A stretch of 64,000 bases of DNA from Celeribacter indicus (lineage in GTDB: Bacteria > Pseudomonadota > Alphaproteobacteria > Rhodobacterales > Rhodobacteraceae). The stretch lies in contig NZ_CP004396.1 of assembly GCF_000819565.1 (NCBI RefSeq), positions 1 through 64,000 of the forward strand. The letters run 5' to 3'. The translations under genes were made by a program, and so were the position numbers. Under the pieces are notes generated by a model. It was not told the origin of the DNA. It made no database searches and was given only the letters and a program-made list of their open reading frames with translations. Below, one piece after another: positions 3,571-38,243 of the stretch (position 1 is its first letter; every line of letters starts with the position of its first letter).

Positions 3571-5739
3571 ATGGCGAAATCTGCCCAGAAAGTCACCCTG
3601 TCCCCGTCCCGGGACATTCCCTTCGACAAGCTCGTGCTGAGCCAGTCCAACGTTCGGCGCATCAAGGCCGGCATCTCCATCGAGGAACTGGCCGAAGACA
3701 TCGCCCGTCGCGGGTTGCTGCAGAGCCTGAGCGTCCGGCCAGTTCTGGCGGATGATGGTTCCGAGACCGGCAAGTTCGAAATCCCCGCTGGCGGCCGACG
3801 CTTCCAGGCCCTGTCTCTGCTGGTGAAACAGAAACGCCTGGCCAAGACCACGCCCATTCCCTGCATCGTTCGGGATGCCAATTCCACCATCCTCGCCGAA
3901 GACGACTCGCTCGCTGAGAACATGCAGCGCGCTGCCTTGCATCCGCTCGACCAGTTCCGCGCCTTTGTGGCGCTTCGGGAGAAGAGTCAGGGCGATGAAG
4001 AGATCGCGGCCGCTTTCTTCGTCACGCCGCAGGTGGTCAAACAGCGCCTGAAACTCGCCGCCGTGGCCCCTGCCCTGCTCGAGCTTTATGCCGAAGACGA
4101 GATGACGCTGGAGCAGCTGATGGCCTTCACGGTCAATCCGGATCATGAGCGCCAGATCCAGGTCTGGGATGCGATCAAGTCGTCCTGGAACAAGGAGCCT
4201 TATCAGATCCGACGCATGCTGACGGAAACTTCGGTGCGGGCCTCCGATCGTCGTGCCGTCTTTGTCGGCGTCGAGGCCTATGAGGCTGCCGGCGGCACCA
4301 TGCTGCACGACCTCTTCCAAGGTGATGACGGCGGCTGGCTGGAAGACCCTGCCCTGCTGGATCGTCTGGTCAGCGAGAAGCTTCAGACTGAAGCCGAAGC
4401 CATCGCAACTGAGGGCTGGAAGTGGATCGAGGTCTCGCTCGATCTGCCCTATGGCTACAGCCACGGCTTGCGGCGACTCAACGGAGACCCGGCGCCGATG
4501 ACGGATGACGAAGGCGCGGCCCATGCCAGGCTGCTTGCCGAGTACCGGGCGCTCGAGGAGGAATGCGAGGGCCAGGATGAATTCCCCGATGAGATCGACG
4601 CGCGGCTTGGCGAGCTGGAAGTCGCGATGGAGAACCTCGAGGCGCGGCCGCTGATCTTCGACGCGGAGGAGATCGCGCGGGCAGGGGCTTTCGTGACGCT
4701 TGATCGCTATGGCGAGCTTGCCGTCTACCGGGGCTTTGTCCGGCCCGAGGATGAGCCTCGGGAAGACGCCGATGTCCACAGCGGTGAACAGGCGGAAGAC
4801 GGGCAGGGCGCTGAGCTTTCAACGGGGAGCCATGTGGATGGTATCGGCCACGGCACGGTAATTACTTCTGCTGGTCAGGCGCTTGGCGCGAACGTGACCG
4901 AAGACGAGGACGATTGCGCGTTGAAACCCTTGCCCGAGCGGCTGGTCATGGAGCTGACGGCGCACCGGACATTGGCACTGCGCGAAGCTGTCGGGCGCTC
5001 CCCCGACGTCGCACTGACGCTGCTGCTCCTGAAGCTCGTGGGTGACACCTTCCGGACGTCCAGTTCGGCGGGCAGCTGCCTCGAGGCCTCGGTCCGGCAC
5101 GTCTACATGTCCGCGCAGGCGAGCGATCTGAAGGACAGCGTGGTGGCCAAGCTGGTAGACGATCGTCACGCGGGGTGGGAGGCCGACCTGCCGCTCGGCG
5201 ACGATGCCGCTCTCTGGGACTACCTGGCTTCCCTCGATCAGGCGAGCCGGCTGTCCCTGCTCGCGCATTGCCTCAGCTTTGGGATCAACGCGCTGCATGA
5301 GAAGGTGAACCCCTATGGTGCCGGTATCTCCGCCAGCGGTTTGACCAAGCGGATGACCCAGTCCGACTTGGTTGCACAGGCGACAGGTCTCGACATGGTC
5401 GAGGCGGGTTGGGAGCCGACGGCCGATACCTACCTGAACCGCGTGCCCAAGGCACGGATCCTCGAGGCCGTGCGCGAGGCGAAAGGGGAGGGGACGGCGC
5501 AACTCCTCGATCACCTGAAGAAGGGCGAGATGGCGACCGAAGCCGAGCGTCTGCTGAAAGGTAGCGGCTGGTTGCCGGAGGTTCTTCGCCGTCACGACCT
5601 GGTAACACTCGACGGTGCGGAAGGGCAGGGGGCACCTGAGCCCGTTTCCGACGCCGAGCAGGCCGAAGATGTCGACCTTCCCGCCTTCCTCACCGCTGAC
5701 CTGCCGGGTGATGATGCGTCGATGATGGCTGCTGAGTGA
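3571..5739 (+). CDS. Large ParB/Spo0J-family protein of the plasmid maintenance block
   Basis: The N-terminal ParB domain spans about residues 10-150: FDKLVLSQSNVRR, IARRGLLQSLSVRP, AGGRRFQALSLL and the box EDDSLAENMQRAALHPLDQF. A helix-turn-helix follows (FVTPQVVKQRLKLAAV). The remaining roughly 500 residues are acidic and have no domain I can name. The 722 residues are about twice the size of RepB, so this is not the canonical partition protein. Such proteins travel on conjugative plasmids with DUF932, RadC and strawberry-notch helicase genes; the role is unknown, perhaps DNA loading, nicking or anti-restriction. Start chosen at 3571 for the GGAGAAG site; a GTG at 3505 lies upstream of the leader hairpin. 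Confidence 0.88.
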   Translation: MAKSAQKVTLSPSRDIPFDKLVLSQSNVRRIKAGISIEELAEDIARRGLLQSLSVRPVLADDGSETGKFEIPAGGRRFQALSLLVKQKRLAKTTPIPCIVRDANSTILAEDDSLAENMQRAALHPLDQFRAFVALREKSQGDEEIAAAFFVTPQVVKQRLKLAAVAPALLELYAEDEMTLEQLMAFTVNPDHERQIQVWDAIKSSWNKEPYQIRRMLTETSVRASDRRAVFVGVEAYEAAGGTMLHDLFQGDDGGWLEDPALLDRLVSEKLQTEAEAIATEGWKWIEVSLDLPYGYSHGLRRLNGDPAPMTDDEGAAHARLLAEYRALEEECEGQDEFPDEIDARLGELEVAMENLEARPLIFDAEEIARAGAFVTLDRYGELAVYRGFVRPEDEPREDADVHSGEQAEDGQGAELSTGSHVDGIGHGTVITSAGQALGANVTEDEDDCALKPLPERLVMELTAHRTLALREAVGRSPDVALTLLLLKLVGDTFRTSSSAGSCLEASVRHVYMSAQASDLKDSVVAKLVDDRHAGWEADLPLGDDAALWDYLASLDQASRLSLLAHCLSFGINALHEKVNPYGAGISASGLTKRMTQSDLVAQATGLDMVEAGWEPTADTYLNRVPKARILEAVREAKGEGTAQLLDHLKKGEMATEAERLLKGSGWLPEVLRRHDLVTLDGAEGQGAPEPVSDAEQAEDVDLPAFLTADLPGDDASMMAAE

Positions 5740-5751
5740 TCCGCGTCATCC

Positions 5752-5773
5752 GAGGGCGGGTTTCCCCGCCCTC
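5752..5773 (+). terminator. Hairpin after the ParB-like gene
   Basis: GAGGGCGGG (5752-5760) and CCCGCCCTC (5765-5773) form a perfect 9-bp stem with a four-base loop, 12 bases after the stop. No T-run follows, so it could be an RNA-stabilising or weak terminator hairpin. Confidence 0.55.
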
Positions 5774-5804
5774 AAACACATAAAACCAAACAATATCAAT
5801 ATGA

Positions 5805-5826
5805 TGAATGCAAAATGACGCATTCA
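5805..5826. promoter_or_regulatory. Inverted repeat before the gene at 5839
   Basis: TGAATGC (5805-5811) and GCATTCA (5820-5826) are perfect 7-bp arms with an 8-base spacer in an AT-rich stretch just before the next gene. It looks like an operator or promoter-proximal hairpin. Confidence 0.35.
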
Positions 5827-5838
5827 GGATGAGGAATC

Positions 5839-6312
5839 ATGTCTGCAACCACCATTCTCGACACCGCGCCCCTGGGCGCGCTCATTCGCTACACCGACAA
5901 CAGTCCGAAACCGCCCGCACGGTTCACAAAGAAGCTCGCGGCCTGGGAGCGCTCGAACGGCGTCGGCCGTCTCGTCAAGAAGGAGCCGCCGCGACCCTAT
6001 CCGACCTGGACGGCGCCGGCGTCGTTCACGCTGCACGAGGGGAACTTCTCCTCGGACGGGGTCATCCTCGTCACCATCATGCGGACACATTCGGCGGATA
6101 GCGCCTTGACCTTCGAGGTCGCTGAGGAACCACAGCCCGGGCAGGTGCGTGTCCTATTGGATTTCGGCGGGTCCACGGAGTTGCTCCACCTGGCCGAGTC
6201 TGTCACGGCTGCCGAACTCTGGATCGCCAGGGAAGGCTATCGCAACGCGCGACTCGAGATCGTCGGCAGCAAGAACGGGGATAGGGCAGGGGACGCGGAA
6301 CTTGCCGCCTGA
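5839..6312 (+). CDS. Conserved plasmid protein of unknown function
   Basis: A 157-residue soluble protein; I do not recognise a named domain. The N-terminal half has PPARFTKKLAAWERSNGVGRLVKKE. The middle looks like a small beta-rich domain (TLHEGNFSSDGVILVTI, then VRVLLDFGGSTELLHLAES). There is no signal peptide or membrane segment. It follows the ParB-like gene after a hairpin, and a GAGG ribosome site sits just before the ATG. The codon use and context suggest a real gene of the maintenance block. Confidence 0.75.
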   Translation: MSATTILDTAPLGALIRYTDNSPKPPARFTKKLAAWERSNGVGRLVKKEPPRPYPTWTAPASFTLHEGNFSSDGVILVTIMRTHSADSALTFEVAEEPQPGQVRVLLDFGGSTELLHLAESVTAAELWIAREGYRNARLEIVGSKNGDRAGDAELAA

Positions 6313-6331
6313 GCCTACGTAGAACTCAAGG

Positions 6332-6351
6332 GGCCCGCCAAAGCGCGGGCC
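6332..6351 (+). terminator. GC hairpin after the gene at 5839
   Basis: GGCCCGC (6332-6338) and GCGGGCC (6345-6351) pair perfectly around six bases, 20 bases past the stop at 6312. No long T-run is present. Confidence 0.5.
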
Positions 6352-6700
6352 TCTCACCCATCACGGCCCTGTCCCGCGAGATCGCGGGGCACCATAGGAT
6401 CCAATCCAACACGGAAGGAGGTCTTCTACCAAATGTCTGCCCGGGAGGCTGGCAGCGATAGCATCAGCGGAACACCAGGCTCCAGTCAGCGGTCGCACCA
6501 TCCCCCGCTCGCCATTCCCTTCCTTGCCCCGAATCCCGTCTTCGAGATCAACCCGCGAGGGGTCGGACTACGGGCGAGCCCGTGCCGCCGGGTGGATTCG
6601 GACGAGCCGAACGCACCCGGTGATGTCAGCCAGTCTTCGGGCCTGCGGGGTCCTGTCGCGCGGGGGATGGTCCTCCGCCTCCAAGACAGGAGCCAAACAG
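6352..6700. other. Gap without a clear gene
   Basis: About 350 bases with one candidate. An ATG at 6433 preceded by AAGGAGG opens a frame of 126 residues running to 6813 over the next gene. Its protein is low-complexity and Arg/Pro/Ser-rich, like a high-GC chance frame. It may be a decayed gene or leader; I do not call it coding. Confidence 0.4.
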
Positions 6701-6865
6701 ATGTCCCACAAAGATGCTCACGCCTTCGCAGCCTCCCTCGCCGCCACGCTCATGGTCTCGATCGTCGTCTTCCAGGCAGGCGATGGAACCTTCGGCGCCG
6801 TCCCCGCCGATGAAATCGACGGAGACGAGGTCGTGATCGTCTCGGAATACGATCCCTTCGGGTGA
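6701..6865 (+). CDS. Small single-pass or exported protein, unknown
   Basis: A 54-residue protein beginning MSHKDAHAFAASLAATLMVSIVVFQ. The hydrophobic stretch at residues 8-24 could be a membrane anchor or uncleaved signal. The tail is acidic (DEIDGDEVVIVSEYDPF). A GGAG lies 12 bases before the ATG. The stop codon is built into a UUCG-loop hairpin (6862-6879), a good end of transcription. Function unknown. Confidence 0.6.
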   Translation: MSHKDAHAFAASLAATLMVSIVVFQAGDGTFGAVPADEIDGDEVVIVSEYDPFG

Positions 6866-6920
6866 GGCTTCGGCCTCACTTCCCGAGGGCCCAGGCGTGG
6901 CACAGGTGTGCCCCTGGGCC
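6862..6920. terminator. Two adjacent hairpins between converging units
   Basis: GTGAGGC-TTCG-GCCTCAC (6862-6879) is a 7-bp stem with a UUCG loop. Next, GGCCCAGG (6888-6895) pairs with CCTGGGCC (6913-6920), with an inner GGCACA/TGTGCC stem. They separate the plus-strand maintenance genes from the end of the minus-strand Ubl operon. The stretch 6921-7101 holds nothing else I can support. Confidence 0.6.
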
Positions 6921-7101
6921 TATCACCGACGAAGAGATCGGCGATGCCGATCCGAGGAACGCCGGTATGCGACCCCGCGTGGACCGTGATGCGCCCAAGT
7001 TGGGCGGAGAGTGGTCTTTTGCTGCGGCACGAACGAATGTCCGCAACGAGATCGCCGTTGGCTATGAAGTCATTTGGCCATCTGGCCCGAAAGCTGCGCA
7101 G

Positions 7102-7461
7102 TCATCTTGATCGGGAACCGCTGTCGCGGCACCAGTCAATCCGCCCCTGCCGGATCCAGAAGTGACACCGGCACTCGTTCGTCTGGCGAACCGACGGTGA
7201 GATCGTCGGTCGCTTCAGCCAGTCTGATGTAGCCGTCCACCTGGGGCTCCGGTTCTTGCTGAGGGACAGCTTGATGGTCTCGCCGCACCCGCCGGGGCAG
7301 TGGAAGCAGGCCCATTTGTCGACGCCATCGCGCACGATGGTCATCTCCCCAGGCACAATCTGGTCCGGCGCCGGATGTGTGGGTGTTACCCTGGCGACCA
7401 GGTCACTTTGCGGAATGAGGCGGAAGAGCTCGAGGCTCTTCCGCAGAACGTCAATTATCAT
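7102..7461 (-). CDS. DUF6527 protein, last gene of the Ubl conjugation operon
   Basis: 119 residues. Cysteine-rich motifs typical of DUF6527 are present: KWACFHCPGGCG (residues 49-60), a Trp/Pro-Ser segment (PTISPSV), then ECRCHFWI (96-103) and IDWC (108-111). DUF6527 proteins occur in bacterial ubiquitin-like operons (called BubE in recent work, where a peptidase role on the Ubl was proposed). I recall this from the literature and cannot check the catalytic residues here. The ATG at 7461 lies five bases after the stop of the E1 gene and is chosen over longer in-frame options that run inside that gene. Likely role: maturation or removal of the Ubl modifier. Confidence 0.8.
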   Translation of the reverse strand: MIIDVLRKSLELFRLIPQSDLVARVTPTHPAPDQIVPGEMTIVRDGVDKWACFHCPGGCGETIKLSLSKNRSPRWTATSDWLKRPTISPSVRQTNECRCHFWIRQGRIDWCRDSGSRSR

Positions 7462-7466
7462 CCCGC

Positions 7467-8876
7467 TCACCCGATGCGATCCAGGAACGGATCGATGTCG
7501 CCGAGGCCCCAGTATTCCTCGCTGCCGCAGACCGGGCAGTCGGACCGGGGCTGCGCCGCCTGCGAACGCTCGAAGCCCTTGTCGAGCTTGCGATAGCGTT
7601 GCCATGTCCATCCGCCGCCACCGCGGAAGTCGACGAGACCGGCAAGAAGTTCGTTCACTGCCATGGTGGCGGCCTCGGAGGTGAAGGTCACGACGGCCGG
7701 CGCGGGATTACCTCCGCCGCGGACGTAGGCTTCGGTCTTCTGCCGTTCATATTCGGCGGGGTCCGATCGCTGGAGGTCCTCCTCGCGAGCCCTGACGCGA
7801 TCGACTGTGCCGCGGCAGCCGTGGCACGCCGACGTGGGAAACAGCACGCTGACCCGCGCGGCCATCTCGAGGAGGCCGGGCACACCATCGTCACGGGGCA
7901 TGAGGACCAGCCCCACATCGATGACCGGGATCAGGTAGAAGTGCGCCACGCGGTTCAGGTAGAGGCGCCCGGCGTGATCGTCCGTGCATCCGAAGATGAC
8001 GTCGCAGGATTTCAGCGCGTCACGGATATGCGGCGCATCCACCCAGCCGTTCATCGACCGGATCTCGACGTCGAGGCCCATCATCGTCACCTCGCGCACC
8101 ATGACGTCGACCTTGGGCACCGCGTTTTCGGCATCCTTTCGGGTCGCGCCATACAGGCGGTTCAGGTTGGAATGCTCGACCACGTCATCGTCGATGACCA
8201 CGATGCGCCCCACGCCGAGGCGAGCGAGGAGATGGACCACCGGGCTTCCCGTGCCGCCGCAGCCGACCACGGCAACGGAGAGCTGTTTGAGGAGTCCGTT
8301 GACCTCCGGCCCGAAGGCCAGTGCCTGCCGGGCCAAGGCTTCCGACGGGGTCGGCACGTCGGTCGACTGGATCTCGAGCCGAGTGCCGATGACGGTCACG
8401 CGGTGACAGGGCAGGGGTATCATGTCGTCTTCCCAGACCCGTGCCCGGTAGAGGCCGTCACCGACCTGCACGACGCTCACCAGGCGTGTCCCCTCGCCGT
8501 TACGGTTCCGGGCCATGGTGAACAGGTCCCGCTCGTTGCGATCGTCCTGGTCCGAGAAACCGTCGAAGCCTCCCGGGTGACTATGAACGATCGCCGGCAC
8601 CAAGCCTTCCTCCTTGGCCCGGCGACAGAGCTGGGCGAAGGAGTTGGTATTCCAGGTGACGTGCTTGTCGCTTGCATCGACGCGGTCCTCCTGCGGGATC
8701 GCGATGACCTCGTAGGAGGTGTAGCGGGTCCGCGGCTCGAGGTCCCAGGGGTCCTGCGCGATCTCGCTTTTGCCGAGCAGCATGTAGGCGGCGCCCTCGT
8801 GCCCACGGGGGTGCGCGAGCAGCGCCTGCAGCTTGTCGCGGTGACGGGCGTGGAGGGTGATGTCCCTGCGCTTCAT
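7467..8876 (-). CDS. JAB deubiquitinase-like / E1 (ThiF-like) fusion of the Ubl operon
   Basis: 469 residues. The N-terminal JAB/JAMM metallopeptidase has Glu27, the HSHP motif at 98-101, Ser108 and Asp111, a complete zinc site. From about residue 190 an E1/ThiF adenylation domain follows: GCGGTGSP nucleotide loop (205-212), DDD at 229-231, NLNR (237-240), and two CxxC pairs (CHGC at 351-354 and CPVC near the C-terminus) for a structural zinc. One protein therefore carries both a probable Ubl activator and a probable Ubl-removing enzyme. The native start overlapped the E2 stop (ATGA), but a 1401-bp IS now sits six bases upstream and has taken away the GGAGG ribosome site. Confidence 0.9.
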   Translation of the reverse strand: MKRRDITLHARHRDKLQALLAHPRGHEGAAYMLLGKSEIAQDPWDLEPRTRYTSYEVIAIPQEDRVDASDKHVTWNTNSFAQLCRRAKEEGLVPAIVHSHPGGFDGFSDQDDRNERDLFTMARNRNGEGTRLVSVVQVGDGLYRARVWEDDMIPLPCHRVTVIGTRLEIQSTDVPTPSEALARQALAFGPEVNGLLKQLSVAVVGCGGTGSPVVHLLARLGVGRIVVIDDDVVEHSNLNRLYGATRKDAENAVPKVDVMVREVTMMGLDVEIRSMNGWVDAPHIRDALKSCDVIFGCTDDHAGRLYLNRVAHFYLIPVIDVGLVLMPRDDGVPGLLEMAARVSVLFPTSACHGCRGTVDRVRAREEDLQRSDPAEYERQKTEAYVRGGGNPAPAVVTFTSEAATMAVNELLAGLVDFRGGGGWTWQRYRKLDKGFERSQAAQPRSDCPVCGSEEYWGLGDIDPFLDRIG

Positions 8877-8882
8877 GCCGCC

Positions 8883-10283
8883 GAGCTATGCTTGAATTTG
8901 GGTGACGCGCATCATCAGGCGGCGCGGTTTTCGGTATCGTTTGTGTGTTCGATACCGTCTGTGAACTTGATTCCTTCGATAACCTTTGGCAACTGATTTC
9001 TGCCCTTGAGGCGCAGCCATTTTTTCGATGCTGCCTGAATGAGGGTGAAGACCATCAGTTTTGCGGTCTTTTGTGACAGCGCCCCTTTGGTCCTCACCGT
9101 TCGGTGCCGAACAGTGGCGAACACGCTTTCAATCGGGTTCGAGGTGCGCAGATGGCCCCAATGCTCAGCTGGGAAGTCGAAGAATGCAAGCATCGCCTCT
9201 TCGTCCTTTGTCAGGCAGGCAACACCTTTTGGGTATTTGACGCCATACTTTTCGGAGAAAACTGCCAACGCAGCATCGGCTTCTGCGCGCGTTCCGGCGT
9301 GCTGGATGTCGTCCAGATCTGACTTGACCGCCAGGGCCATCTGCTTGGGAAAACAGTTCTGGACGTTCTTTACCTTATGCACCCAACACCGTTGGTGCTT
9401 TGTGCCTGGAAACGTTTTGTCCAGTGCGTTCCAGAACCCCATGGCTCCATCCCCAACCGCAATTTCCGGTGCGACGGACAGCCCGCGGCCTTTGATGTCG
9501 GTCAGCAACTCATGCCAGCTCTGCGCGCTCTCCCGCAGGCCGACCTGAAAGCCGATCAGCTCTTTCTTGCCCTCCGGTGTCGCGCCGATGATCACCAGCA
9601 TGCATTCGGCATTTTCCTCCATCCGCGCCTGAAGATAGACGCCGTCCGCCCAGATGTAGACATAGTGGCGGGCAGACAGATCCCGCCGTGCCCAGGCATC
9701 ATATTGAACCTGCCATCCGGCAGTCAGACGCGAGATGACGCTTGGCGAGAGGTTGGGTGCATCCGGCCCCATGATGGCCGACAGCGCGTCCTGGAAATCG
9801 CCCGTCGATATGCCCTTCAGATAAAGAACAGGCAGCAGCGCGTCCAAGCTGATCGAGCGGCGCGCCCATTTCGGCAGAATGTTCGAGGTAAAGCGGATTT
9901 TTTCTGCCCCATCACAGGACGCCATCCGGTCGCGCACCTTGGGCCGCTGGACATCCAGAGCACCGATCCCCGTCTGAATCTTCCGTTCAGGGCCAAATCC
10001 ATGCCGCACAATCCGCTGGCGGCCATCCTCCAAGTGCTCAGCGGCAAAACTGGCGACAAACGCATCAGCTTCGGCTTTCAGCGCCTCCGCCAGCATCCGG
10101 CGCGCACCTTCCCGTGCAATTTCTGTCAATGGATCCGCTATCGATTCCGATTGGCGAAAGGGCAGGATCGTTGTATCGTTCTTCATAGGCGTATTGCTCC
10201 TCGTGAGGTTCTGGCCGGCTTCAACACCCGCCACAATACGCCGCACTTCAAATCACACCATCACCCAAATTCCCGCATAGCTC
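8883..10283 (-). mobile_element. IS256-family element, copy 1 (1401 bp), in the Ubl operon
   Basis: Ends are imperfect inverted repeats starting GAGCTATGC and sharing GAATTTGGGTGA. The 9-bp target duplication CATGCCGCC flanks it at 8874-8882 and 10284-10292. It contains one transposase gene, read in the same direction as the Ubl operon. It is the same length as copy 2 (18981-20381), the encoded protein is identical, and the orientation is opposite. The insertion lies between the E2-like and E1-JAB genes. Confidence 0.95.
8915..10186 (-). CDS. IS256-family (mutator-type) transposase, copy 1
   Basis: 423 residues from the ATG at 10186 (an in-frame ATG 60 bases earlier is possible). DDE-type transposase of the IS256/MuDR group. 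Visible segments include the Asp in YVYIWADGVYLQARM, the second Asp in AVGDGAMGFW followed by KHQRCWVHKVKN, and the Glu in TSNPIESVFATVRHRTVRTKG. The product is identical to that at 19078-20349, so movement was recent. Confidence 0.93.
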   Translation of the reverse strand: MKNDTTILPFRQSESIADPLTEIAREGARRMLAEALKAEADAFVASFAAEHLEDGRQRIVRHGFGPERKIQTGIGALDVQRPKVRDRMASCDGAEKIRFTSNILPKWARRSISLDALLPVLYLKGISTGDFQDALSAIMGPDAPNLSPSVISRLTAGWQVQYDAWARRDLSARHYVYIWADGVYLQARMEENAECMLVIIGATPEGKKELIGFQVGLRESAQSWHELLTDIKGRGLSVAPEIAVGDGAMGFWNALDKTFPGTKHQRCWVHKVKNVQNCFPKQMALAVKSDLDDIQHAGTRAEADAALAVFSEKYGVKYPKGVACLTKDEEAMLAFFDFPAEHWGHLRTSNPIESVFATVRHRTVRTKGALSQKTAKLMVFTLIQAASKKWLRLKGRNQLPKVIEGIKFTDGIEHTNDTENRAA

Positions 10284-10663
10284 CATGCCGCCACCTCCAG
10301 GGCCTCTTCGACCCGCTTCAGCATGGTCCAGATGCCGTCGGTGCCGGGACGCCACTGGTTGTTATGGCGAGACCAGCGCTGCCAGTTCTGGCCATCGAAG
10401 GCCTGGCGTGCCTGCGTGCAGCGGGGCTCACGCTGGCCGGCAAGGAGCTTCAGATGCGGCACGGCGTAGAACATGTCGGGCGCGACCTCGGGATACGAGG
10501 GCGGCAGCAGGATCAGGATATCCGCCTGGGCGACCTGATACTTGCCTTTCGGCAGCGTGATCCCGGTGAGGATCACGCCCTTCTTTCCGCCTTCGATGAC
10601 CTCGCGAACGGTGATGCCGCGCCCATCGAGGTAGCGGCGATCCTGACGGGGGAGGAGGCTCAT
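10253..10663 (-). CDS. E2-like protein of the Ubl operon, C-terminus altered by IS
   Basis: 136 residues now, natively 126. It resembles prokaryotic E2-like (Prok-E2_E type) proteins: GVILTGITLPKGKY, the strand ADILILLPPSYPEVAPDMFY, His70, Cys82, and the helix region WQRWSRHNNQWRPGTDGIWTMLKRVEEAL cut here into WQRWSRH (94-100) and WRPGTDG (104-110). It starts in an ATGA overlap with the Ubl gene. Before the IS the frame ended at GCGGCATGA, overlapping the E1-JAB start; the IS replaces this with ten extra residues (WSYAGIWVMV). Expected role: receives the Ubl from E1. Cys82 could be the acceptor, but some families use other residues. Confidence 0.8.
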   Translation of the reverse strand: MSLLPRQDRRYLDGRGITVREVIEGGKKGVILTGITLPKGKYQVAQADILILLPPSYPEVAPDMFYAVPHLKLLAGQREPRCTQARQAFDGQNWQRWSRHNNQWRPGTDGIWTMLKRVEEALEVAAWSYAGIWVMV

Positions 10664-11199
10664 TCCGCACCCCCTTCCGTGGTCTGGGGCACGCCGGTGA
10701 AGAAGTGCTCCAGGCCAGCATCCGCGAGGCAGATCAGATCGGTGTCGCCGACCAGGATGTCATCCTTGCCGGGGATCACCTGCCAGACGGCGAACTTGGC
10801 GGGATCGACCCCGGCCAGCTTCTTGAGCACGCGACCGCTGATGACCTTGTGGCCCCACTCGAGGCGTTTGCCATCGATGTCGAAGCGGAAAGATTCCGCG
10901 CTCGGGAAGACCAGGAAGCGCTCGACCTGGCCAGGGCGCAGATCCGTGGTTTCCTCGAGGCGCAGTTCTTCAAGTTCACCGTTGCGCAGCACCTGGAACA
11001 CGAGGTGTTCCTCGGCCTTACGGAAGCCGGCCCCCTCGATGATCTGGCGGCCGGTGGGCGTCGGATCGTCGATGACGGCGTCGGTGAACTTCAGGTCGTG
11101 GTCGCCGACTTTGACCTTGTAGGGTCCGTGGTCGCGGGGCTTGCGGCCGGCCATCAGGGCGGCCTGGAGATCTTCGATCTCGATCGGTTCGGTAGACAT
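10660..11199 (-). CDS. Two-domain ubiquitin-like (Multi_ubiq) modifier protein
   Basis: 179 residues with two beta-grasp-like repeats of the multi-ubiquitin family. Repeat 1 starts at YKVKVGDHDLKFTD (about 27-100) and repeat 2 at ESFRFDIDGKRLEWGHKVISG (about 102-170). Each has the shape strand - short strand - helix - strand. The chain ends EGGAE, so conjugation through a Gly would require trimming, which the DUF6527 protein could do. It is the first gene of the operon; the ATG at 11199 is 57 bases after the upstream 27-bp element. Likely role: the protein tag attached to targets or to itself during stress or phage attack. Confidence 0.82.
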   Translation of the reverse strand: MSTEPIEIEDLQAALMAGRKPRDHGPYKVKVGDHDLKFTDAVIDDPTPTGRQIIEGAGFRKAEEHLVFQVLRNGELEELRLEETTDLRPGQVERFLVFPSAESFRFDIDGKRLEWGHKVISGRVLKKLAGVDPAKFAVWQVIPGKDDILVGDTDLICLADAGLEHFFTGVPQTTEGGAE

Positions 11200-11256
11200 G
11201 GCAGCAAATCCTTTTCTTGTCTGCTCGACGCCCGCAGCAGGCGCCTTGTGCCCCCT

Positions 11257-11283
11257 ATGCTCCCGAGAGGCGGCCCATCGGAC
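11257..11283 (-). promoter_or_regulatory. Shared 27-bp element before the Ubl operon
   Basis: On the minus strand: GTCCGATGGGC, six variable bases, TCGGGAGCAT. The identical 11-base and 10-base blocks with the same spacing occur in the opposite direction at 11464-11490 before the sigma-like gene. Two conserved blocks with a variable spacer look like -35 and -10 boxes for an alternative sigma factor. The distance to the Ubl start codon is 57 bases. Confidence 0.7.
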
Positions 11284-11463: not shown

Positions 11464-11490
11464 GTCCGATGGGCGTCTTTTCGGGAGCAT
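11464..11490 (+). promoter_or_regulatory. Shared 27-bp element before the sigma-like gene
   Basis: GTCCGATGGGC, six variable bases, TCGGGAGCAT, 28 bases before the ATG at 11519. It mirrors the element at 11257-11283. The sequence between the two elements is AT-richer and contains a run of A at about 11445-11451. Probable autoregulated promoter of the regulatory cassette. Confidence 0.7.
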
Positions 11491-11518
11491 ACAAGAGTGA
11501 CAGGCAATCGAGCGGCTC

Positions 11519-12076
11519 ATGAAAGACGACAAAGACATAGAGAAGTTCTATCCTCCCGAAGACGCCACCGAGGCAATTCGAAACCTGTCAGCCGAACAGA
11601 AGCGAAGGCTCGCGGCAGTAGCCAAAAGGCGCGCCTGGTTTGCGGGAGACCCTGAGGGGTTGCTGCATGAAGCCATCGCAAGCACAGCAGAGGGGAAGAG
11701 ACGATGGAACCGTTCCGTCGATATCGTGCGCCATCTGGACAAGGTGATGCAGAGCATCACGTCCAATGCCGCGAAGCGCAGAAAGGTCGCCGCCGACAAA
11801 CGCGAAGAGCTCTCGACACGAGAGGAATGGCGGGATGAAGAACCATCAACCGAAGCCGCCCTTGAGGCCCGCGAGTTCCGTGAGGAGCAACACGCGAAGG
11901 CCATCGAACTGTGCGGTGACGATTGGGAAGTGCAACTTCTCGTAGAAGGTCTGCTCAACAACAGCACGCCGGAAGAACTGGTTGAGCTCTTCGGAAGCAA
12001 GACCTCATATGAAACGGTCCGGAGAAGAATGAATCGAAAAATCGAGAACTACCGGGCCCAGGGTGATAACCGATGA
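11519..12076 (+). CDS. Sigma-70-like regulatory protein
   Basis: 185 residues. The N-terminal part resembles sigma region 2 (LSAEQKRRLAAVAKRRAW, DPEGLLHEAI, then RSVDIVRHLDKVMQSI). A charged linker follows, then a sigma region 4-like helix-turn-helix (about 125-180: EVQLLVEGLL, TPEELVELFG, SYETVRRRMNRKI). It is divergent from the Ubl operon and first in an operon with a small acidic protein and an ImmA/IrrE peptidase, joined by overlaps. The promoter-like element it shares with the Ubl operon suggests it drives both. Sigma activity is inferred from resemblance and layout. Confidence 0.75.
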   Translation: MKDDKDIEKFYPPEDATEAIRNLSAEQKRRLAAVAKRRAWFAGDPEGLLHEAIASTAEGKRRWNRSVDIVRHLDKVMQSITSNAAKRRKVAADKREELSTREEWRDEEPSTEAALEAREFREEQHAKAIELCGDDWEVQLLVEGLLNNSTPEELVELFGSKTSYETVRRRMNRKIENYRAQGDNR

Positions 12077-12483
12077 CAAAAAAGAAGGCCCCCGGAGTGA
12101 CCCGTCTTGAAGACGAGATGGTGGAAGATGTCTTTGCCATGAGCGACGCCGAGATCGAGGCGGAGCTTCGGGAAGAGGGCGTCGATATCGACGCGTTCGA
12201 CAAGGAAATGGACGACCTCTTCGCATTCGCGCTTGCAGAGGGTGGGCAGCGGCGTCTGCAGAACGCTCGCAAGGCGGTCGACCTGCATCATGAACGCCAG
12301 AAGCGGAAAGAACAGCAAAAGTCCCAGGACGAACTTCGCGCGCAGATCGCCGCGATCGTCGCCGGCAACACTGACCTTACGATGGCCGCCCGCAACTTTG
12401 AGAAGGAGCATGATGGCGATCTGGAGGGGGTCCTTGAGGATCTGCAGGAGCTCATGGGTGACGATTGGGATGACGATGAGTGA
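12073..12483 (+). CDS. Small acidic protein between sigma-like and peptidase genes
   Basis: 136 residues, strongly charged and helical, probably coiled coil around residues 55-105 (AEGGQRRLQNARKAVDLHHE, then EQQKSQDELRAQIAAI). The tail is acidic (DDWDDDE). No named family recognised. It starts in an ATGA overlap with the sigma-like gene and ends in a TGATG overlap with the peptidase gene. By position it could be an inhibitor of the sigma-like protein and the substrate of the peptidase; this is inference only. Confidence 0.72.
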   Translation: MTKKKAPGVTRLEDEMVEDVFAMSDAEIEAELREEGVDIDAFDKEMDDLFAFALAEGGQRRLQNARKAVDLHHERQKRKEQQKSQDELRAQIAAIVAGNTDLTMAARNFEKEHDGDLEGVLEDLQELMGDDWDDDE

Positions 12484-13256
12484 TGCGCACCATCCGTGAT
12501 CCAGAGGAATTGCTAAGGGAATTCGGCGTCTCGCGCCCCGACCAGATCGACTTGGAGGCCATCGCCTGGACGCAGAACGCGCGTGTCCAATACCGTCATC
12601 TGCACGGGTGCGAGGCTCGGATCATTGGTGCGGGGAACCGTGCGAAGATCTCCCTGAAGCCGGATGGGAACCCTCGTCGGAGGCGCTTTTCCCTGGCACA
12701 CGAGATCGGTCATTGGCAGTGTCATCGGGGTCAGACCTTGATGTGCCAGTCTGAAGATATCGAGACGGGCAGCACGATCGGAAAACTTCCTGAGCGCGCG
12801 GCCGACCGCTTCGCCGCGCAGCTCCTGATGCCCGAGTTCCTGATCCGAGAGAGCCTTCGTGGCTACAATAATCGTTTCGACATGGGGACCATTAGGGCTA
12901 TGGCGGAGGATTTCGACATGAGCCTGACGGCCGCTGCGATTAGACTGGTCGAGCGAAACACGCTGCCGAGTTTCCTAGTCTGTCATAGTTCTAGGGGACG
13001 GAAGTGGTTCACGCGATCTCCCACGGTAGACCAGCGATGGTTTCCAATGGATCACTTGGACAAGGACAGCCTCGCGTTCGATGTCCTGTTTGGAGGAGGG
13101 CCCGACGACAGGATGCTGCGCGCGAGTGGGGCGGATGCCTGGTTCGACAAACCTTGGGCAGATGAGATACCGATCAAGGAACAGACCGTCCGCATCTATG
13201 ATGATGAGATTCTGACGCTGCTGGTCGTGCAGGATGAGCGCATGCTCGCAGATTAG
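12483..13256 (+). CDS. ImmA/IrrE-type zinc metallopeptidase
   Basis: 257 residues. The zinc motif HEIGH (in FSLAHEIGHWQCH, about residues 75-87) and the downstream Glu-containing ERAADRFAAQLLMP helix are characteristic of ImmA/IrrE (DUF955) peptidases. Members cleave or bind a repressor or regulator to switch on genes (ImmA on ImmR, IrrE/PprI on DdrO). The C-terminal 110 residues form a second domain (WFTRSPTVDQRWFPMDHLDKD) also seen in cytosolic members. ATG at 13256-side operon partner overlaps by one base with the previous stop; an alternative GTG lies three bases upstream. Confidence 0.88.
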   Translation: MRTIRDPEELLREFGVSRPDQIDLEAIAWTQNARVQYRHLHGCEARIIGAGNRAKISLKPDGNPRRRRFSLAHEIGHWQCHRGQTLMCQSEDIETGSTIGKLPERAADRFAAQLLMPEFLIRESLRGYNNRFDMGTIRAMAEDFDMSLTAAAIRLVERNTLPSFLVCHSSRGRKWFTRSPTVDQRWFPMDHLDKDSLAFDVLFGGGPDDRMLRASGADAWFDKPWADEIPIKEQTVRIYDDEILTLLVVQDERMLAD

Positions 13257-13681: not shown

Positions 13682-15010
13682 GGGAGTGTCATGAACTATG
13701 TGTATCTGGCCCGGCCCATGCGGTTTCAGATACTCAAGCGTCGAAGCGCTCGCCGAACATTATGGCGAACTGGTTGCGGGCTGCAAACCATTCCCGGACA
13801 TTTCGGCCATCCTTTTCGAATTTGCGGATTGCCAGATAGATCAACTTGGTTGCGGCCTCGTCGGTCGGGAAGGAGCCCCGCGTCTTGATCGTTTTCCGGA
13901 TCACGCGGTTCAAGCTTTCTATGGCATTCGTGGTGTAGATGATTTTCCGGATCGCGGGATCGAAACCAAAGAACGGGATCACCTCCTGCCATGCCCGGCG
14001 CCAGGCCGGGGCGATGGAGGCGTATTTCCCGGCCCATTTCTCCTCGAAGGCATCGAGCTCGGCCTCGGCCATATCGGCGGTCGGGGCACTGTAAATCCGG
14101 CGTAGGTCCGCAGCCACGGCCTTGCGGTCCTTCCAAGAGCAGAAATTCAGGGAATGGCGCACCAGATGCACGATGCAGGTCTGGACCATGGCGTCCGGGA
14201 ACGCGGCGGTGATGGCCTCAGGAAAGCCCTTCAGCCCGTCCACGACCGCGATCAGGATGTCCTGCACGCCCCGGTTCTTCAACTCGTTCATCACCGAGAG
14301 CCAGAATTTGGCGCCCTCGTTCTCGGCGGTCCACAGGCCCAGAACCTCACGGCTCCCATCACGGGTGACGCCCAGGGCGACGTAGACGGCCTTATTCTTC
14401 ACTGTCCGGCTGTCGGCGTCACGGATCTTCACCCGTAGAGCGTCGAAGATCACGATGGGATACATCCGATCCAGCGCGCGGGTCTGCCATTCCCTGACCT
14501 CGTCCAGCACCGCATCGGTGACGCGGCTGATCAGGTCGGGCGAGACCTTCAGGCCGTAGAGATCAAGCAGGTGAGCCTGGATGTCCCGGACCGTCAGCCC
14601 GGCCGCATAAAGCCCGATGATCTTGTCATCGATCCCGTCGATCCGGGTCTGGCCCTTCTTCACCAGCTCGGGCTCGAAGCTGCTGTCGCGGTCGCGAGGC
14701 ACCGCCAGCGGCAGTTCGCCGTCTTGGCTCTTCAGCACCTTGCTCGAGGCGCCATTGCGGCGGTTGGTCTGGCCGGGTGGAGCGTCTTTGCCTTCCTCGT
14801 AGCCAAGATGCGCCGTCAGCTCCGCGCCCAGCATTCGTTCCATGAGCTTGATCTTCAGCTCTTTCATCAGCCCGGCATCGCCGAGCAGATCCTCAGGGCG
14901 CTCCACACCCTTAAGCAATTCGTCCAAGATGTCTTTCGAAATAGTCATTCATGCTTCCTTTCGGTGCAGCATGAACCGGATCAGCCATACACAAAAGGTC
15001 GGACACTCTC
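13682..15010 (-). mobile_element. Second kind of IS256-family element (1329 bp)
   Basis: Ends are inverted repeats, left GGGAGTGTCATGA and right (reverse) GAGAGTGTCCGAC, both leading to TGTGTAT. An 8-bp target duplication GCAAGGGG flanks it at 13674-13681 and 15011-15018. It holds one transposase gene on the minus strand. Its sequence is clearly different from the 1401-bp IS. Confidence 0.93.
13734..14948 (-). CDS. IS256-family transposase
   Basis: 404 residues, intact. Typical IS256 transposase landmarks: GYEEGKDAPPGQTNRRNG, VIFDALRVKIRD with the first Asp, VVDGLKGFPEAI with the second Asp, CIVHLVRHSLNF, and TTNAIESLNRVIRKTIKTRG with the catalytic Glu. Closer to the classic IS256 branch than the transposase at 8915-10186. 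Starts at ATG 14948. Confidence 0.95.
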   Translation of the reverse strand: MTISKDILDELLKGVERPEDLLGDAGLMKELKIKLMERMLGAELTAHLGYEEGKDAPPGQTNRRNGASSKVLKSQDGELPLAVPRDRDSSFEPELVKKGQTRIDGIDDKIIGLYAAGLTVRDIQAHLLDLYGLKVSPDLISRVTDAVLDEVREWQTRALDRMYPIVIFDALRVKIRDADSRTVKNKAVYVALGVTRDGSREVLGLWTAENEGAKFWLSVMNELKNRGVQDILIAVVDGLKGFPEAITAAFPDAMVQTCIVHLVRHSLNFCSWKDRKAVAADLRRIYSAPTADMAEAELDAFEEKWAGKYASIAPAWRRAWQEVIPFFGFDPAIRKIIYTTNAIESLNRVIRKTIKTRGSFPTDEAATKLIYLAIRKFEKDGRNVREWFAARNQFAIMFGERFDA

Positions 15011-32157: not shown

Positions 32158-34161
32158 TCAATCGATACCCAGTTTGTGGAAAAACACGCGGTTCCGCATC
32201 TCGGCATCCCGCAGGACTTTGTCCCAACTCAAAACCTCCATGTAGAGATTGTTGTTGCCGAACCATTTGAACCATCCCCCGCCGTCCGGCATGGGAGTGA
32301 AGTCTTTCTCCATTTTTAGCCATTCTTTGACCTTCTCTGTGATTTCACACATAACGTAGCCATAAAATGGGGTGTTTTCAGCGACTTGAATTGGGCGTCC
32401 TTTCGGAGTCTTGAACTTCCCTTTCTTAATGCTGTTCACGTATCGAACGATCTGCTGGACCGGGTCTTCTTTCGACGACGGGTTCGCGAAATCATCGCGC
32501 CCAGGCTTTTTGAACTCGAAAACGGTGATCGGATTGCTCGCCTCATTATCGCCCCGGAACAATACCGGCTTGTCGAATACGAGGATGTCAGGACGCTCAG
32601 ACGTTCCTCCGTCCAAGGGTTTGTCTGAGTGCACAAAAAACGTGAAATTAAGGCGCTCATCTATGATCCAGAGGTTGTGATCATCGTAGGCCGTGGCCGC
32701 GGAATCGCCTTTTCGAGGGAAGATGATGTCATGGACGGTGCCTTCGGACGGGTACTTTAGGTCATCCGTGAGCTCAAAGCTTTTTCCGAAGAGAGTGAGC
32801 ACATGCTTTCGTAGTGCAATATAGTGGATCAGGTCGCTTCGGCTGGTCCTTGATATCTGATCCAGTATCTTGGGCAGGCCATCTTTAAGTCCAGCTGCGT
32901 CCGTTTCACTGAGCATCTTATCAACTTGCTGCCTGATGGCGACTTCCTGAGAGAACTTCTCCCTCTGGAATACTGTCTCAATCTGTTCAGGCGTGGGATT
33001 GTAGGGCATGGACGACAGGTCGATGTCTTCCGCGATTGTCCGGTGCCAAGGCGCAGAATCTTCGACGTAGCTGCGCACCTGTGTGCGTTTCTTCTCCTGT
33101 CTCGCGGTGATTGTATCACCAAGGGCGTCGCGTGCGATGTACGCTGCTGCCTGCTCGATTTCGGCTTGTGAGATAGGATGAAGCAGGTCTTCGCCCTTTG
33201 GGAAATCGAAACCACCACGCTCGAGCGATACGTTGGCATCGAGATATGGGCCGAAGACATACGCCTTGACGATGTAGTTGCGATCCCGTTCTTCGCCTTC
33301 GGATGACCCCTCTTCAAAAAATTCGTCAACGAATTCTGGCACGAAGCTATGGATTGCCGTGTCTGTGACCTCTCGGCGGTCTGCAACCAAGCTGATCTTG
33401 CTCTTCTGATTTCGCGGTGAGTAGAGCTTGAATACTCGAACTTGGAATGTCTGCTCTTTGTCCCCAGATCCCAGAACGATTCTACCATCTTGAAGCGGGA
33501 TCTCCTTGATCATCGCAGCCAGCTGGTTGCTGACAAAATCGTTAAGGATGATCCGACCTGTTCCGTCTTCCTCGGAAATCCCGATCTCTGGACACTGATA
33601 GTCGGCGTCGATGAAGTACGGCAGAAGCCGCTCCACCAGTGTGCGAGCTATCGTCTTGACCTTCTTGTCCGGAAACGCTCGCTTGACCTTGCGCATGGTG
33701 ACACGCGACCCGATGTCGCCGTAAGGACATTCTTCAATGCTTTCATTGACGATGATGTCGGTTTGCTTGCCCATTTTGAAGGCGCGCTTTTTCCGTCCCT
33801 CTTCGTATTGGAAAACACTCTCGATAAGCAAGTCGTCGAAGTATTTCAAACAGGTGAAGCGCCCAAATCCCTTCCCGCCCTGGGCAATCTTGTGGTCGGA
33901 GTACAGGGTGTCGAATGAATCCCTGTTCTCGTCATTGAAGCCGATACCGTTGTCGATGACTGTGAAACTCTCAACGGGCGGCTGGCCGCCTTCAAGTTCC
34001 TGTTGGTTCGACCGTCTCACGAGGATATCGATGCGGCCTTTCTCGATGGATGCGGCTTCGATGGCCTGGATCGCGTTCACGATGGTTTCGACTAGCGGGG
34101 TGTAGACGTTTGTTCCGGATCGGATGTTCTCGACGGCGCGTTTGACGTTGACGTTGCTCAT
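32158..34161 (-). CDS. GHKL ATPase with C-terminal nuclease-like domain (MORC/MutL-like)
   Basis: 667 residues. GHKL (Bergerat) fold at the N-terminus: Glu25 and Asn29 of the N box, VIDNGIGF (68-75) and GGKGFGRF (95-102). The C-terminal part has RPDILVFDKP (523-532), VFEFKKPGRDD (548-558) and a Gln-rich helix DPVQQIVRYV, the order of a PD-(D/E)xK nuclease with Asp525, Glu549 and Lys551. Prokaryotic MutL/MORC-type GHKL ATPases paired with restriction-modification genes are known (Iyer, Abhiman and Aravind). It overlaps the methylase gene by ATGA, so the two proteins are made together. Start at 34161. Confidence 0.85.
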   Translation of the reverse strand: MSNVNVKRAVENIRSGTNVYTPLVETIVNAIQAIEAASIEKGRIDILVRRSNQQELEGGQPPVESFTVIDNGIGFNDENRDSFDTLYSDHKIAQGGKGFGRFTCLKYFDDLLIESVFQYEEGRKKRAFKMGKQTDIIVNESIEECPYGDIGSRVTMRKVKRAFPDKKVKTIARTLVERLLPYFIDADYQCPEIGISEEDGTGRIILNDFVSNQLAAMIKEIPLQDGRIVLGSGDKEQTFQVRVFKLYSPRNQKSKISLVADRREVTDTAIHSFVPEFVDEFFEEGSSEGEERDRNYIVKAYVFGPYLDANVSLERGGFDFPKGEDLLHPISQAEIEQAAAYIARDALGDTITARQEKKRTQVRSYVEDSAPWHRTIAEDIDLSSMPYNPTPEQIETVFQREKFSQEVAIRQQVDKMLSETDAAGLKDGLPKILDQISRTSRSDLIHYIALRKHVLTLFGKSFELTDDLKYPSEGTVHDIIFPRKGDSAATAYDDHNLWIIDERLNFTFFVHSDKPLDGGTSERPDILVFDKPVLFRGDNEASNPITVFEFKKPGRDDFANPSSKEDPVQQIVRYVNSIKKGKFKTPKGRPIQVAENTPFYGYVMCEITEKVKEWLKMEKDFTPMPDGGGWFKWFGNNNLYMEVLSWDKVLRDAEMRNRVFFHKLGID

Positions 34162-37100: not shown

Positions 37101-38243
37101 ATGGCGCCCCTGGTCAAACAGACCGCCATTGTAGGGCGGCAAGCCTATCGACGCGTCGCCTTGATCGATCGCCAGGAAAAGGTCGGCCATCGCTCCCCAA
37201 TAGCGCGCGGCCGTATCCGAGAAGACGTCGTTATTGTCTTTGCGTTCTTTGACATCAAGGCGCACCTTGTTGCGCAGCCCATAATCGTCATAGCGCGTAT
37301 CCTTGACCGGCAAGAGGTCGCGGTCTTCGGCATAGAGGATGAACAAGAGGCGATAGAGCAAAATCAGTGCGGCTTCGCGCACCTCTTGAAGATCAGCCTC
37401 GGGCGCGGCCTTGACGATGGCGCGGACCAGATCGGGGAACACCTCCCCGAAAACCTTGTTTGAGAGGTCTTCGGCAACGCGCTCTTCGTAGAACTTGCCT
37501 TCTTCGAGGGCTTTTTCATGGAAGGTGCGCGGATCAGCCCCCGCAGGCTCGAATGCCTCGCGGCAGAACACAAGGTAGAAGACCTTCAGCCAGTGGCGGC
37601 GATCGGCCTCATTGAGCGCAAAAAGCCCCTCATTGTGCCCTGGCAAGTCCAGGATCGCGGCGATGTCGAGCTCGAAGAATTGCTCGGATACCGATCGCGC
37701 ACCCGAGAAATACAGCCGCCACTTCGAGCCGTTGGTCAGAATGCCCCAACGTAGTGCGCCATTGGTGATATCGTCGATGCGGCGCAAGTAGCGGAGCATC
37801 TGGGTTGATGGGGCGGTTTCTTCCCCGCGCCGGCCGGAGCGGCGATCAAGGGGGCGTGCCCATCTCTTGGATTCGACCACGGCGCGGCCGAACTCGTATC
37901 GCTTCCACTCTTCGGGAAAGCCGTTCGCCTTGGCCTTTGTCTCGGCGCTCTCAAAAAGCAAACCATCGGGCACGTCTTCGCGCCCGCGCGGCGATAGATT
38001 TTGTTGGCGAAGGGATTGTGTCCAGCCAAGCGCTTCTAGGATTGGCCAGATCAGATCGTCTTCGGTCTGACTTTCGTTGGGTGTCTGGGAAATCGGGAAG
38101 TTTTCAAAGATCGATCGAAGAGATGTTTCGAAACGGTCGAGATCAGCATTCCCGAGGGTGTTCCACTCCGAAACGCCTTGAATGGTTTCGGTCAGAAAGT
38201 CAGATGTGAATAGGCTTCCCTGGCTTGCGATCTCACTGCTCAA
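34158..38243 (-). CDS. Type IIG-like restriction-methylase (Eco57I-type)
   Basis: 1361 residues. N-terminal PD-(D/E)xK nuclease: PDGLLF at 92 and VVESKRW with Glu124-x-Lys126. N6-adenine methylase core: DPAMGSGHF near residue 520 and the catalytic NPPW near 810 (VGNPPWDRI). A long C-terminal target-recognition region follows. One polypeptide can therefore cut and methylate. The start is TTG at 38243, seven bases after AAGGAAG; no nearby ATG is in frame. Second gene of a Fic - methylase - ATPase operon; the GHKL partner makes this unlike a simple type IIG enzyme. Confidence 0.88.
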   Translation of the reverse strand: MSSEIASQGSLFTSDFLTETIQGVSEWNTLGNADLDRFETSLRSIFENFPISQTPNESQTEDDLIWPILEALGWTQSLRQQNLSPRGREDVPDGLLFESAETKAKANGFPEEWKRYEFGRAVVESKRWARPLDRRSGRRGEETAPSTQMLRYLRRIDDITNGALRWGILTNGSKWRLYFSGARSVSEQFFELDIAAILDLPGHNEGLFALNEADRRHWLKVFYLVFCREAFEPAGADPRTFHEKALEEGKFYEERVAEDLSNKVFGEVFPDLVRAIVKAAPEADLQEVREAALILLYRLLFILYAEDRDLLPVKDTRYDDYGLRNKVRLDVKERKDNNDVFSDTAARYWGAMADLFLAIDQGDASIGLPPYNGGLFDQGRHAILTNIRIPDAVMARVIDALSFELTPEGRKYINYRNLSVQQLGSIYERLLEYEVTRDGEDITVQPNIFARKGSGSYYTPDDLVQLILTETLEPLVEERKRAFKDKIEELGQGDLPDHRKIGQLKRLDPATALLDLKICDPAMGSGHFLVSLVDFMADQVIAAMAEAELDAPEEWGDYISPLGERIDTIRNTILANADERSWTIDEEQLDDRHIIRRMVLKRCIYGVDKNPMAVELAKVALWLHTFTVGAPLSFLDHHLRCGDSLFGSWVKSGIDKAATYGTPLLLHEPMRRALRAASKMQIVEGLTDAEIAEAHRSADVFAEVQEMTAPLDALLKFIHALEWIGVKDKAGKAALKVFFDGQFGDPLAIAMGKRDPRIKRDADKRFAEILEEARTLIAEENFLNWQVAFPGIWSDWEDDLLNGGFDAIVGNPPWDRIKLQQVEWFAARRPEIARVQRASDRKDLIADLQKAGDPLAAEFEKANARAETTSRMARRGGDYPLLSGGDTNFNSLFVERARKIVAPGGIVGLLIPSGIATETSSQEFFSQLIEGHAASCYFDFFNKRAAGPLFFPDVYYRFKFSVLVFSGGDKTFDQCRFATFVRDIAELKDSRKVFSMGVDHFKHVNPNSKTAPVYRATRDREISTEIYDRFPVLVDRSSGDEVKAWPVQYATLYHMANSSDQFRTAKELHEKEGAWPESGGVWGSSQGTWVPLYEGKMVQAFDHRASGITTVDANLHRSGQGAATTDEQRHDPNHVIAPRYFVLDPGDLRVELAIKDVTSTTNARSLISCIIPPFGAGHTLPILRIEIEDAKKRAEAQAILAASLNSTMVDFVARTKILSNHASWYILEQLPMIPPAEFQSTRFGSKSASQIVCETVLELTYTSHDMAPFARDLGYIDDAGAVRPPFVWDENRRAMLRAKLDALFFILYGLTDRDDVRYVFSTFPIVERQEEDAFGEFRSRELCLAWMNALAAGNPDAEIRL

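Follow-up and report, generated by a model that had tools for sequence, protein, structure and literature searches.

The first 64,000 bases of the Celeribacter indicus contig NZ_CP004396.1, referred to here as the window, carry an operon for bacterial ubiquitin-like (Ubl) conjugation of the kind known as Bub and, divergently oriented from it, a cassette of three genes for a putative sigma factor of the extracytoplasmic function (ECF) type, a small acidic helical protein and a CapP-type metallopeptidase. The contig (C4, with the window at C4:1-64000) has 122,964 bases, and the genome has 4,969,388 bases in 6 contigs. Four genes on the minus strand between 7102 and 11199 encode a two-domain Ubl, an E2-like protein, a JAB-E1 fusion and a DUF6527 protein, at the place and on the strand that a sequence-only reading of the window had given (Table 1). 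That reading also called the contig a conjugative plasmid, which the gene content supports: among nine large open reading frames (ORFs) scanned are those of a MobA/VirD2-type relaxase, a TraG/VirD4-type coupling protein, and VirB4-, VirB10-, and VirB11-type proteins.

Table 1. Position, strand and supporting matches of the features discussed (window coordinates; numbers after family names are E-values).
Feature	Position	Strand	Basis or remark
DUF6527 gene	7102..7459	-	Pfam PF20137 8.5e-25; adjoins E1
JAB-E1 fusion gene (BubCD-like)	7467..8876	-	ThiF 4.9e-39, Prok-JAB 1.8e-7
IS256-family element, inverted ends	8883..10283	-	NCBIfam NF033543 transpos_IS256 4.1e-90; at E2/E1 junction
IS256-family transposase ORF	8915..10246	-	
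E2-like gene (BubB-like)	10253..10663	-	Prok-E2_E, Pfam PF14462 2.2e-49
Ubl gene (BubA-like)	10660..11199	-	two Multi_ubiq domains, Pfam PF14452 1.1e-28, 2 stretches; C-terminus ...TTEGGAE
Predicted promoter element GTCCG-N18-GCATA facing Ubl gene	11256..11283	-	56 nt before Ubl start
Predicted promoter element GTCCG-N18-GCATA facing sigma gene	11464..11491	+	27 nt before sigma start
ECF-like sigma factor gene	11519..12076	+	sigma profiles, PDB profile match, folds
Small acidic helical protein gene	12073..12483	+	between sigma and peptidase in loci with the three genes
CapP-type ImmA/IrrE (M78) metallopeptidase gene	12480..13256	+	PADLOC capP 1.9e-59; PF06114 3.2e-13

The Bub Operon

The Pfam matches of the operon genes exceed the curated cut-offs, and the nearest solved structures point to the same systems. 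The Ubl is closest to PDB chain 8u38 (1.6e-33), labelled 'Methylobacterium brachiatum Ubl-BilA', followed closely by chains labelled as multi-ubiquitin domain proteins. The nearest solved chain to the E2-like protein is Citrobacter BubB (PDB 9eae, 1.5e-12); its sole cysteine ('prCtqa') is aligned with an alanine of BubB, and the motif QRWSRH is common to both. The JAB-E1 protein is nearest to Citrobacter BubCD (PDB 9ea4, 2.4e-43), with which it shares, in the alignment, the JAB metal (JAMM) motif HSHPGGF..FSD.DD and the adenylation motifs GTGS, NLNR, and PKVD. These families and chains bear out the sequence-only reading that the parts belong to known prokaryotic Ubl systems, recently called Bub. 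The Ubl and E2 genes share an ATGA overlap at 10660-10663. A Ubl foreign to the beta-grasp fold, or a JAB-E1 protein lacking ATP and Ubl binding, would have counted against that reading; at the sequence level neither was found, and the solved homologues predict a beta-grasp fold for the Ubl and binding of ATP and Ubl by JAB-E1.

The fusion of JAB and E1 in one chain, which had been considered less usual, is the norm in this family and was described in 2006. Type 6e operons consist of a polyUbl, an RWD-like E2, a JAB-E1 fusion and a metal-binding protein, and the two domains are fused 'in most cases' (Iyer et al. 2006, PMC1779556). The DUF6527 protein is probably the metal-binding protein 'Y' of type 6e. 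Relatives of JAB-E1 occur in 166 plasmid records, 107 of which span 80% or more of its length, and in 338 stretches of genome contigs, from which 78 loci were kept; the 18 of these with 65-99% identity to the window JAB-E1 (our loci L005-L022) are called close Bub loci. The name Bub is used in a study that counts 544 such operons, 219 of them reported with the controllers CapW or CapH+CapP, and that describes phage protection as so far not demonstrated (PMC13373217, EMBO J, June 2026). By sequence comparison, the minus-strand operon of the window is a Bub operon and a further member of this known family. It has the same Multi_ubiq Ubl, Prok-E2_E protein, JAB-E1 fusion and metal-binding protein as other Bub or type 6e operons and differs by an IS256-type insertion between E2 and E1. 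Like the Bil systems, it is predicted to carry out bacterial Ubl conjugation. As PDB labels go, its Ubl is nearest to a chain labelled BilA, whereas its E1, joined to JAB in a single chain, and its E2 are nearest to Bub.

A Sigma Factor, a Small Acidic Protein and a Peptidase

The linkage of the operon to a sigma/peptidase cassette had also been described as less usual. The cassette is real and noteworthy, and this part of the earlier reading stands; it understated the case, since the cassette recurs, has apparent promoters of its own and is the most interesting part of the locus. The first protein is well supported by sequence comparison as an ECF-like sigma factor. The model TIGR02937 (sigma70-ECF) matches 15 of 20 aligned members of its family at E<=0.1 (best 2.2e-8), Sigma70_r2 matches seven of the 20 (best 2.8e-4), and the family profile finds Mycobacterium tuberculosis SigH in the PDB (2.3e-5). 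The two domains that define ECF factors, sigma2 and sigma4, are both found in the product of this gene, and the first Foldseek matches of its model are ECF sigma factors.

The small protein is all-helical in its AlphaFold2 model (predicted local distance difference test score 82.7, predicted template modelling score 0.42), and its profile finds no PDB chain under E 0.05. It is a candidate anti-sigma factor and peptidase substrate, by analogy with systems discussed below. The peptidase matches solved CapP (PDB 7t5t, 7.1e-10), and in family searches neither of its two partners matches a helix-turn-helix (HTH) repressor family, to which the CapP partner CapH belongs.

Predicted Pairs of Divergent Promoters

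Two outward-pointing copies of GTCCG-N18-GCATA lie within the 319-base region between the sigma and Ubl genes. Such pairs were sought without a preset motif by setting each intergenic region against its reverse complement, with 200 random sequences each, in 22 loci including the window; p<=0.035 was obtained in 15 of them, the window among these. A pattern search, its spacing widened to 17 or 18 after this result, found GTCCG-N17/18-GCATA with at most one mismatch on both divergent sides in 14 of 21 other loci (L085, L094, L095, and L100 being excluded from this count), against a background of 12 matches in 378,578 strand-bases from the rest of 15 plasmid loci. The independent support is smaller than 14, because several of these loci nearly duplicate the window or L005. 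L094, L095, L119, and L120 have at most weak pairs with one or two mismatches a side. On C4, the only two sites are the divergent pair itself.

The two elements also vary together. When the best element on each side was chosen independently in 19 representative loci, elements of the same locus agreed at 14.8 of 22 positions compared with 12.2 after shuffling (p 5e-5, the minimum attainable with 20,000 shuffles), and the spacer was the same on both sides in 18 of the 19 loci (11.1 expected). The chosen elements are poor at L101 and on the target side of L097, gene starts in L119 and L120 are approximate, and independence is weakened because some loci are related (L091 with L093; L097, L098, and L120 with one another). 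A natural swap offers a further comparison: the Ubl genes of the window and L005 are identical at 527 of 537 bases, and their cassettes are different (sigma 26%, peptidase 46% identity). Directly ahead of the Ubl start, the two loci have 40 identical bases, and the DNA upstream of these differs except for the -10 element GCATA, which occupies the same position. Taken together, the prediction that the sigma factor recognises both its own promoter and that of the Ubl gene is well supported at the level of sequence. In the 40 bases before the Ubl start (11200-11239), CTGCT...AGCAG lie near each other and could by eye form a short hairpin.

Occurrence of the Cassette at Other Loci

A tblastn search of plasmids with the peptidase gave 52 records; 19 regions were taken from the 24 best of the 40 best matches (H45 and H47-H50, further records from Bradyrhizobium barranii and Cereibacter sphaeroides, were omitted), and L123, L124, L125, and L126 were added later. 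Sigma-like, small and peptidase genes occur in that order in all 19 first regions; the last two genes are frame-broken in L085, where the sigma-like gene was assigned by position, and the unannotated L094 and L095 were read as ORFs. What lies divergently from the cassette varies. It is Bub in five regions (L083, L089, where it is truncated, L094, L097, and L098), genes of a cyclic oligonucleotide-based antiphage signalling system (CBASS) in another five (L085 and L087 with identical protein accessions, L088, L096, and L101), an E2-E1-JAB protein with a patatin in L092, and small, uncharacterised or insertion-element genes in six (L084, L086, L091, L093, L099, and L100); L095 was left out of this reading. 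L090 (3621-4802) has a single Beta_protein gene (PF14350) facing the cassette, a candidate new target in one of the 19 regions. A gene for a protein of about 92 residues lies at or near the target-side promoter in L084, L087, L091, L093, and L099, beside CBASS or other genes, and the three such proteins tested (L084, L087, and L091) match no Pfam family above its cut-off.

Among the later regions, L124 carries the full cassette. A similar arrangement is seen in L123, a Pontibacter (Bacteroidota) plasmid locus next to a Bub operon, and in L126; in these the sigma factor is identified by profile (5.9e-9 and 1.6e-4, respectively) and the small protein is not recognisable. Downstream of the peptidase gene, L123 carries umuD and a gene for a Y-family polymerase (6916-8636), which is consistent with a DNA-damage theme. 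L125 has no such cassette; an annotated pair of HTH regulator and ImmA/IrrE peptidase lies there divergently from genes for a small hypothetical protein, a metallohydrolase and a ThiF protein. The genome locus L119 has the cassette beside a JAB/E1 gene set (5537-7826) that differs from Bub, its first protein matching DUF7665 below the cut-off.

Among the 18 close Bub loci, six have a cassette of the window type (in L015 with the first 126 sigma residues only) and seven a diverged one, the latter read from ORFs in L005 and L019 and otherwise deduced from the positions of matching peptidases. In genome samples the cassette is sporadic, with 2 of 385 genomes of the class, 6 of 394 of the family (one of them weak) and 1 of 398 of the phylum, the isolate's own genome being counted in each. 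The pairwise distances of the three proteins correlate (sigma-small r 0.83, sigma-peptidase 0.79, small-peptidase 0.82; n=18). These comparisons support the view that the cassette is portable and travels as a unit. By eye, RES/Xre-like genes stand in place of the cassette in L014 and L016, in which JAB-E1 is 93% and 79% identical to that of the window.

Proposed Mechanism of Control

We propose, with a probability of roughly three in four, that the Bub operon is controlled by a sigma switch that is held by a small anti-sigma factor and released by a damage-activated CapP-type peptidase. The sigma factor would read GTCCG-N18-GCATA at its own gene and at the Ubl gene, and the small acidic protein most likely keeps it inactive. 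The peptidase, probably activated by single-stranded DNA (ssDNA) during phage attack or other DNA damage, would cut the small protein, and the released sigma factor would drive its own operon, in positive feedback, as well as the Bub operon. Of the Bub products, JAB-E1 would adenylate the C-terminus of the Ubl with its E1 half and trim or remove the Ubl with its JAB half, the E2-like protein would aid Ubl transfer to a target, and the DUF6527 protein would act as an accessory metal-binding protein. The outcome may be protection from phages. In the presence of ssDNA, CapP and Deinococcus PprI cut a regulator (PMC10904395), this substrate being a transcription repressor (PMC10904395; PMC13373217), and in Calp a sigma factor is freed when a protease cuts the anti-sigma factor CalpT (PMC12751052). 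By analogy with these precedents, the small protein is both anti-sigma factor and peptidase substrate in our model, and its role is the most exposed step. With somewhat less assurance, we also favour a broader interpretation in which the cassette represents a new class of mobile controller that switches on Bub, CBASS and other plasmid operons through paired divergent promoters, its small partner being destroyed by a DNA-damage-activated peptidase.

Several observations weigh against this model. The window sigma factor taken alone is weak (TIGR02937 E 0.013, 15.2 bits against a cut-off of 42.9) and has no Pfam match, Foldseek with its model reaches E 0.018 at best, whole-model VIA matches have root-mean-square deviations of 13-18, and in the two Bacteroidota loci the sigma-like proteins are recovered by the sigma profile and by no NCBIfam model. 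Family, profile and fold searches gave neither a family match nor a useful fold match for the small protein, and its anti-sigma role is therefore argued from position, charge and analogy; activation by ssDNA is likewise suggested by analogy with CapP and PprI. The untargeted promoter test is unsupportive in seven of the 22 loci (L084, L086, L089, L098, L101, L005, and L012); in the pattern search, the pair is weak in four of the 21 loci (L089, L092, L005, and L012), an element is present on one side only in L097 and L098, and L101 has none. The exact pattern occurs at 14 sites in the isolate's genome, as does the control, and is therefore not specific by itself. Finally, the cassette was not found in five of the 18 close Bub loci (L014, L016, L018, L021, and L022), of which L018 and L022 lie in contigs that contain hardly any DNA upstream of them, or none.

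Alternative Explanations

One competing explanation, which we regard as unlikely, leaves the three genes and their promoters as described and changes the role of the small protein, which would assist the sigma factor as a chaperone or co-activator, or has the peptidase cut the sigma factor to end the response. The lack of a recognised family or fold match for the small protein leaves room for this. In the usual ECF layout, a sigma gene is followed by an inhibitor gene in one operon. The precedents also argue for an anti-sigma role, with CapP and PprI cleaving a repressor (PMC10904395; PMC13373217) and the Calp protease cleaving CalpT (PMC12751052). A far less probable one is that the cassette is a mere neighbour, such as a toxin-antitoxin-like stability cassette, beside a Bub operon with a housekeeping promoter of its own. 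The close Bub loci in which no cassette was detected fit this, the peptidase family also matches repressor/antitoxin models (NF052239, 4e-7), and the solved CapP chain bears the PDB label 'CapP toxin'. Such a neighbour would not account for a promoter that faces both target and sigma gene in two thirds of the loci searched (14/21), for the co-variation of the copies, or for the exchange of the Bub promoter together with the cassette between the window and L005. It is equally improbable that the locus is the known CapH+CapP controller with the small or the sigma-like protein as a diverged CapH repressor. The peptidase scores as capP, and such loci may be filed among the 219 of 544 Bub operons with CapW or CapH+CapP (PMC13373217). 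On the other side, the first gene is related to ECF sigma factors, the second has no HTH family match, the annotated two-gene HTH and peptidase locus L125 looks different, and a repressor alone leaves unexplained two -35/-10-like elements of constant spacing that face both genes.

Another question concerns the isolate itself. The IS256-family element at the E2/E1 junction is bordered by the 9-bp direct repeat GGCGGCATG (10284-10292 and 8874-8882). The junction is uninterrupted in all 10 genome relatives compared and in L083, from plasmid pMARC5 of Paracoccus marcusii, and in all of these the E2 and E1 genes overlap by ATGA, as the sequence-only reading had supposed for the state before the insertion. 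The exact GGCGGCATG is present as a single copy in eight of the 10 relatives and in L083, and as a variant in L014 and L019. The start of JAB-E1 is now at the far edge of the element, and the E2 frame of the window continues into it. Because the insertion parts the JAB-E1 gene from the promoter-proximal genes, JAB-E1 may be uncoupled or poorly expressed in this isolate. That the operon is decaying and nonfunctional here, with JAB-E1 cut off from its promoter and start context, is possible, if on balance doubtful: the element sits exactly on the junction, and the last ten residues of E2 are element-derived and missing from uninterrupted relatives, but the four genes all retain open frames, JAB-E1 shares 99% identity with relatives that lack the insertion, and transcripts from the element could serve it. 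Decay would concern the isolate and not the family, and is compatible with control by the sigma switch.

Comparison with Known Controllers and Significance

CapW, CapH+CapP, and CapK+CapS are the three controller families named for Bub operons, all of them repressor-based (PMC13373217); the window has the sigma cassette alongside its operon instead. The cassette shares with CapH+CapP of CBASS and other immune operons a CapP-type ImmA/IrrE peptidase in a regulator set beside an immune operon; where that set has the HTH repressor CapH, the cassette has an ECF-like sigma factor together with a small helical protein. With a sigma factor instead of a repressor, control would work by activation and not by derepression. 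Calp (CalpL/CalpT/CalpS, type III CRISPR (clustered regularly interspaced short palindromic repeats); PMC12751052) follows the same logic of protease, anti-sigma factor and sigma factor, whereas the protease predicted here is an M78 peptidase and not Lon-SAVED; no CRISPR genes were found among the annotated genes of the cassette regions read, two of which are unannotated. Like ECF factors such as M. tuberculosis SigH and Escherichia coli sigmaE, the sigma factor is modelled as two helical domains with a linker between them, has an operonic partner and is apparently autoregulated; it differs from them in being accompanied by a cytosolic peptidase rather than a membrane anti-sigma pathway, and in that the cassette rides with plasmid defence operons. 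Deinococcus PprI/IrrE-DdrO (PMC10904395) belongs to the same peptidase family and has ssDNA-linked cleavage of a regulator, and differs in target and in mode of gene control.

Among the literature matches listed, no sigma-based controller of this kind was found, an absence that is not proof. On present evidence, a controller that couples CapP-type sensing to a switch by an ECF sigma factor appears to be a so far undescribed mode of regulation. It bears on the open question of how immune operons that are costly to the cell are held silent and then activated, and in this respect the cassette would be of greater importance than the Bub operon, which adds one member to a known family. Since its promoter and protease substrate are predicted and its first gene is that of a sigma factor, such a controller is directly testable; near-identical Bub operons with swapped cassettes provide a natural experiment on sigma-promoter specificity, and the GTCCG-N17/18-GCATA pattern facing both genes helps to find further governed operons, including those of the proteins of about 92 residues.

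Other Features of the Window

A transposase ORF lies directly downstream of the peptidase gene (13734-14948) and appears by eye to be a second Mutator/IS256-type transposase. Farther along (32158-38243), a HATPase_c protein of 686 residues, slightly under the Pfam cut-off, adjoins an Eco57I-type methylase of 1361 residues, and the two are possibly a further defence pair on the same plasmid.

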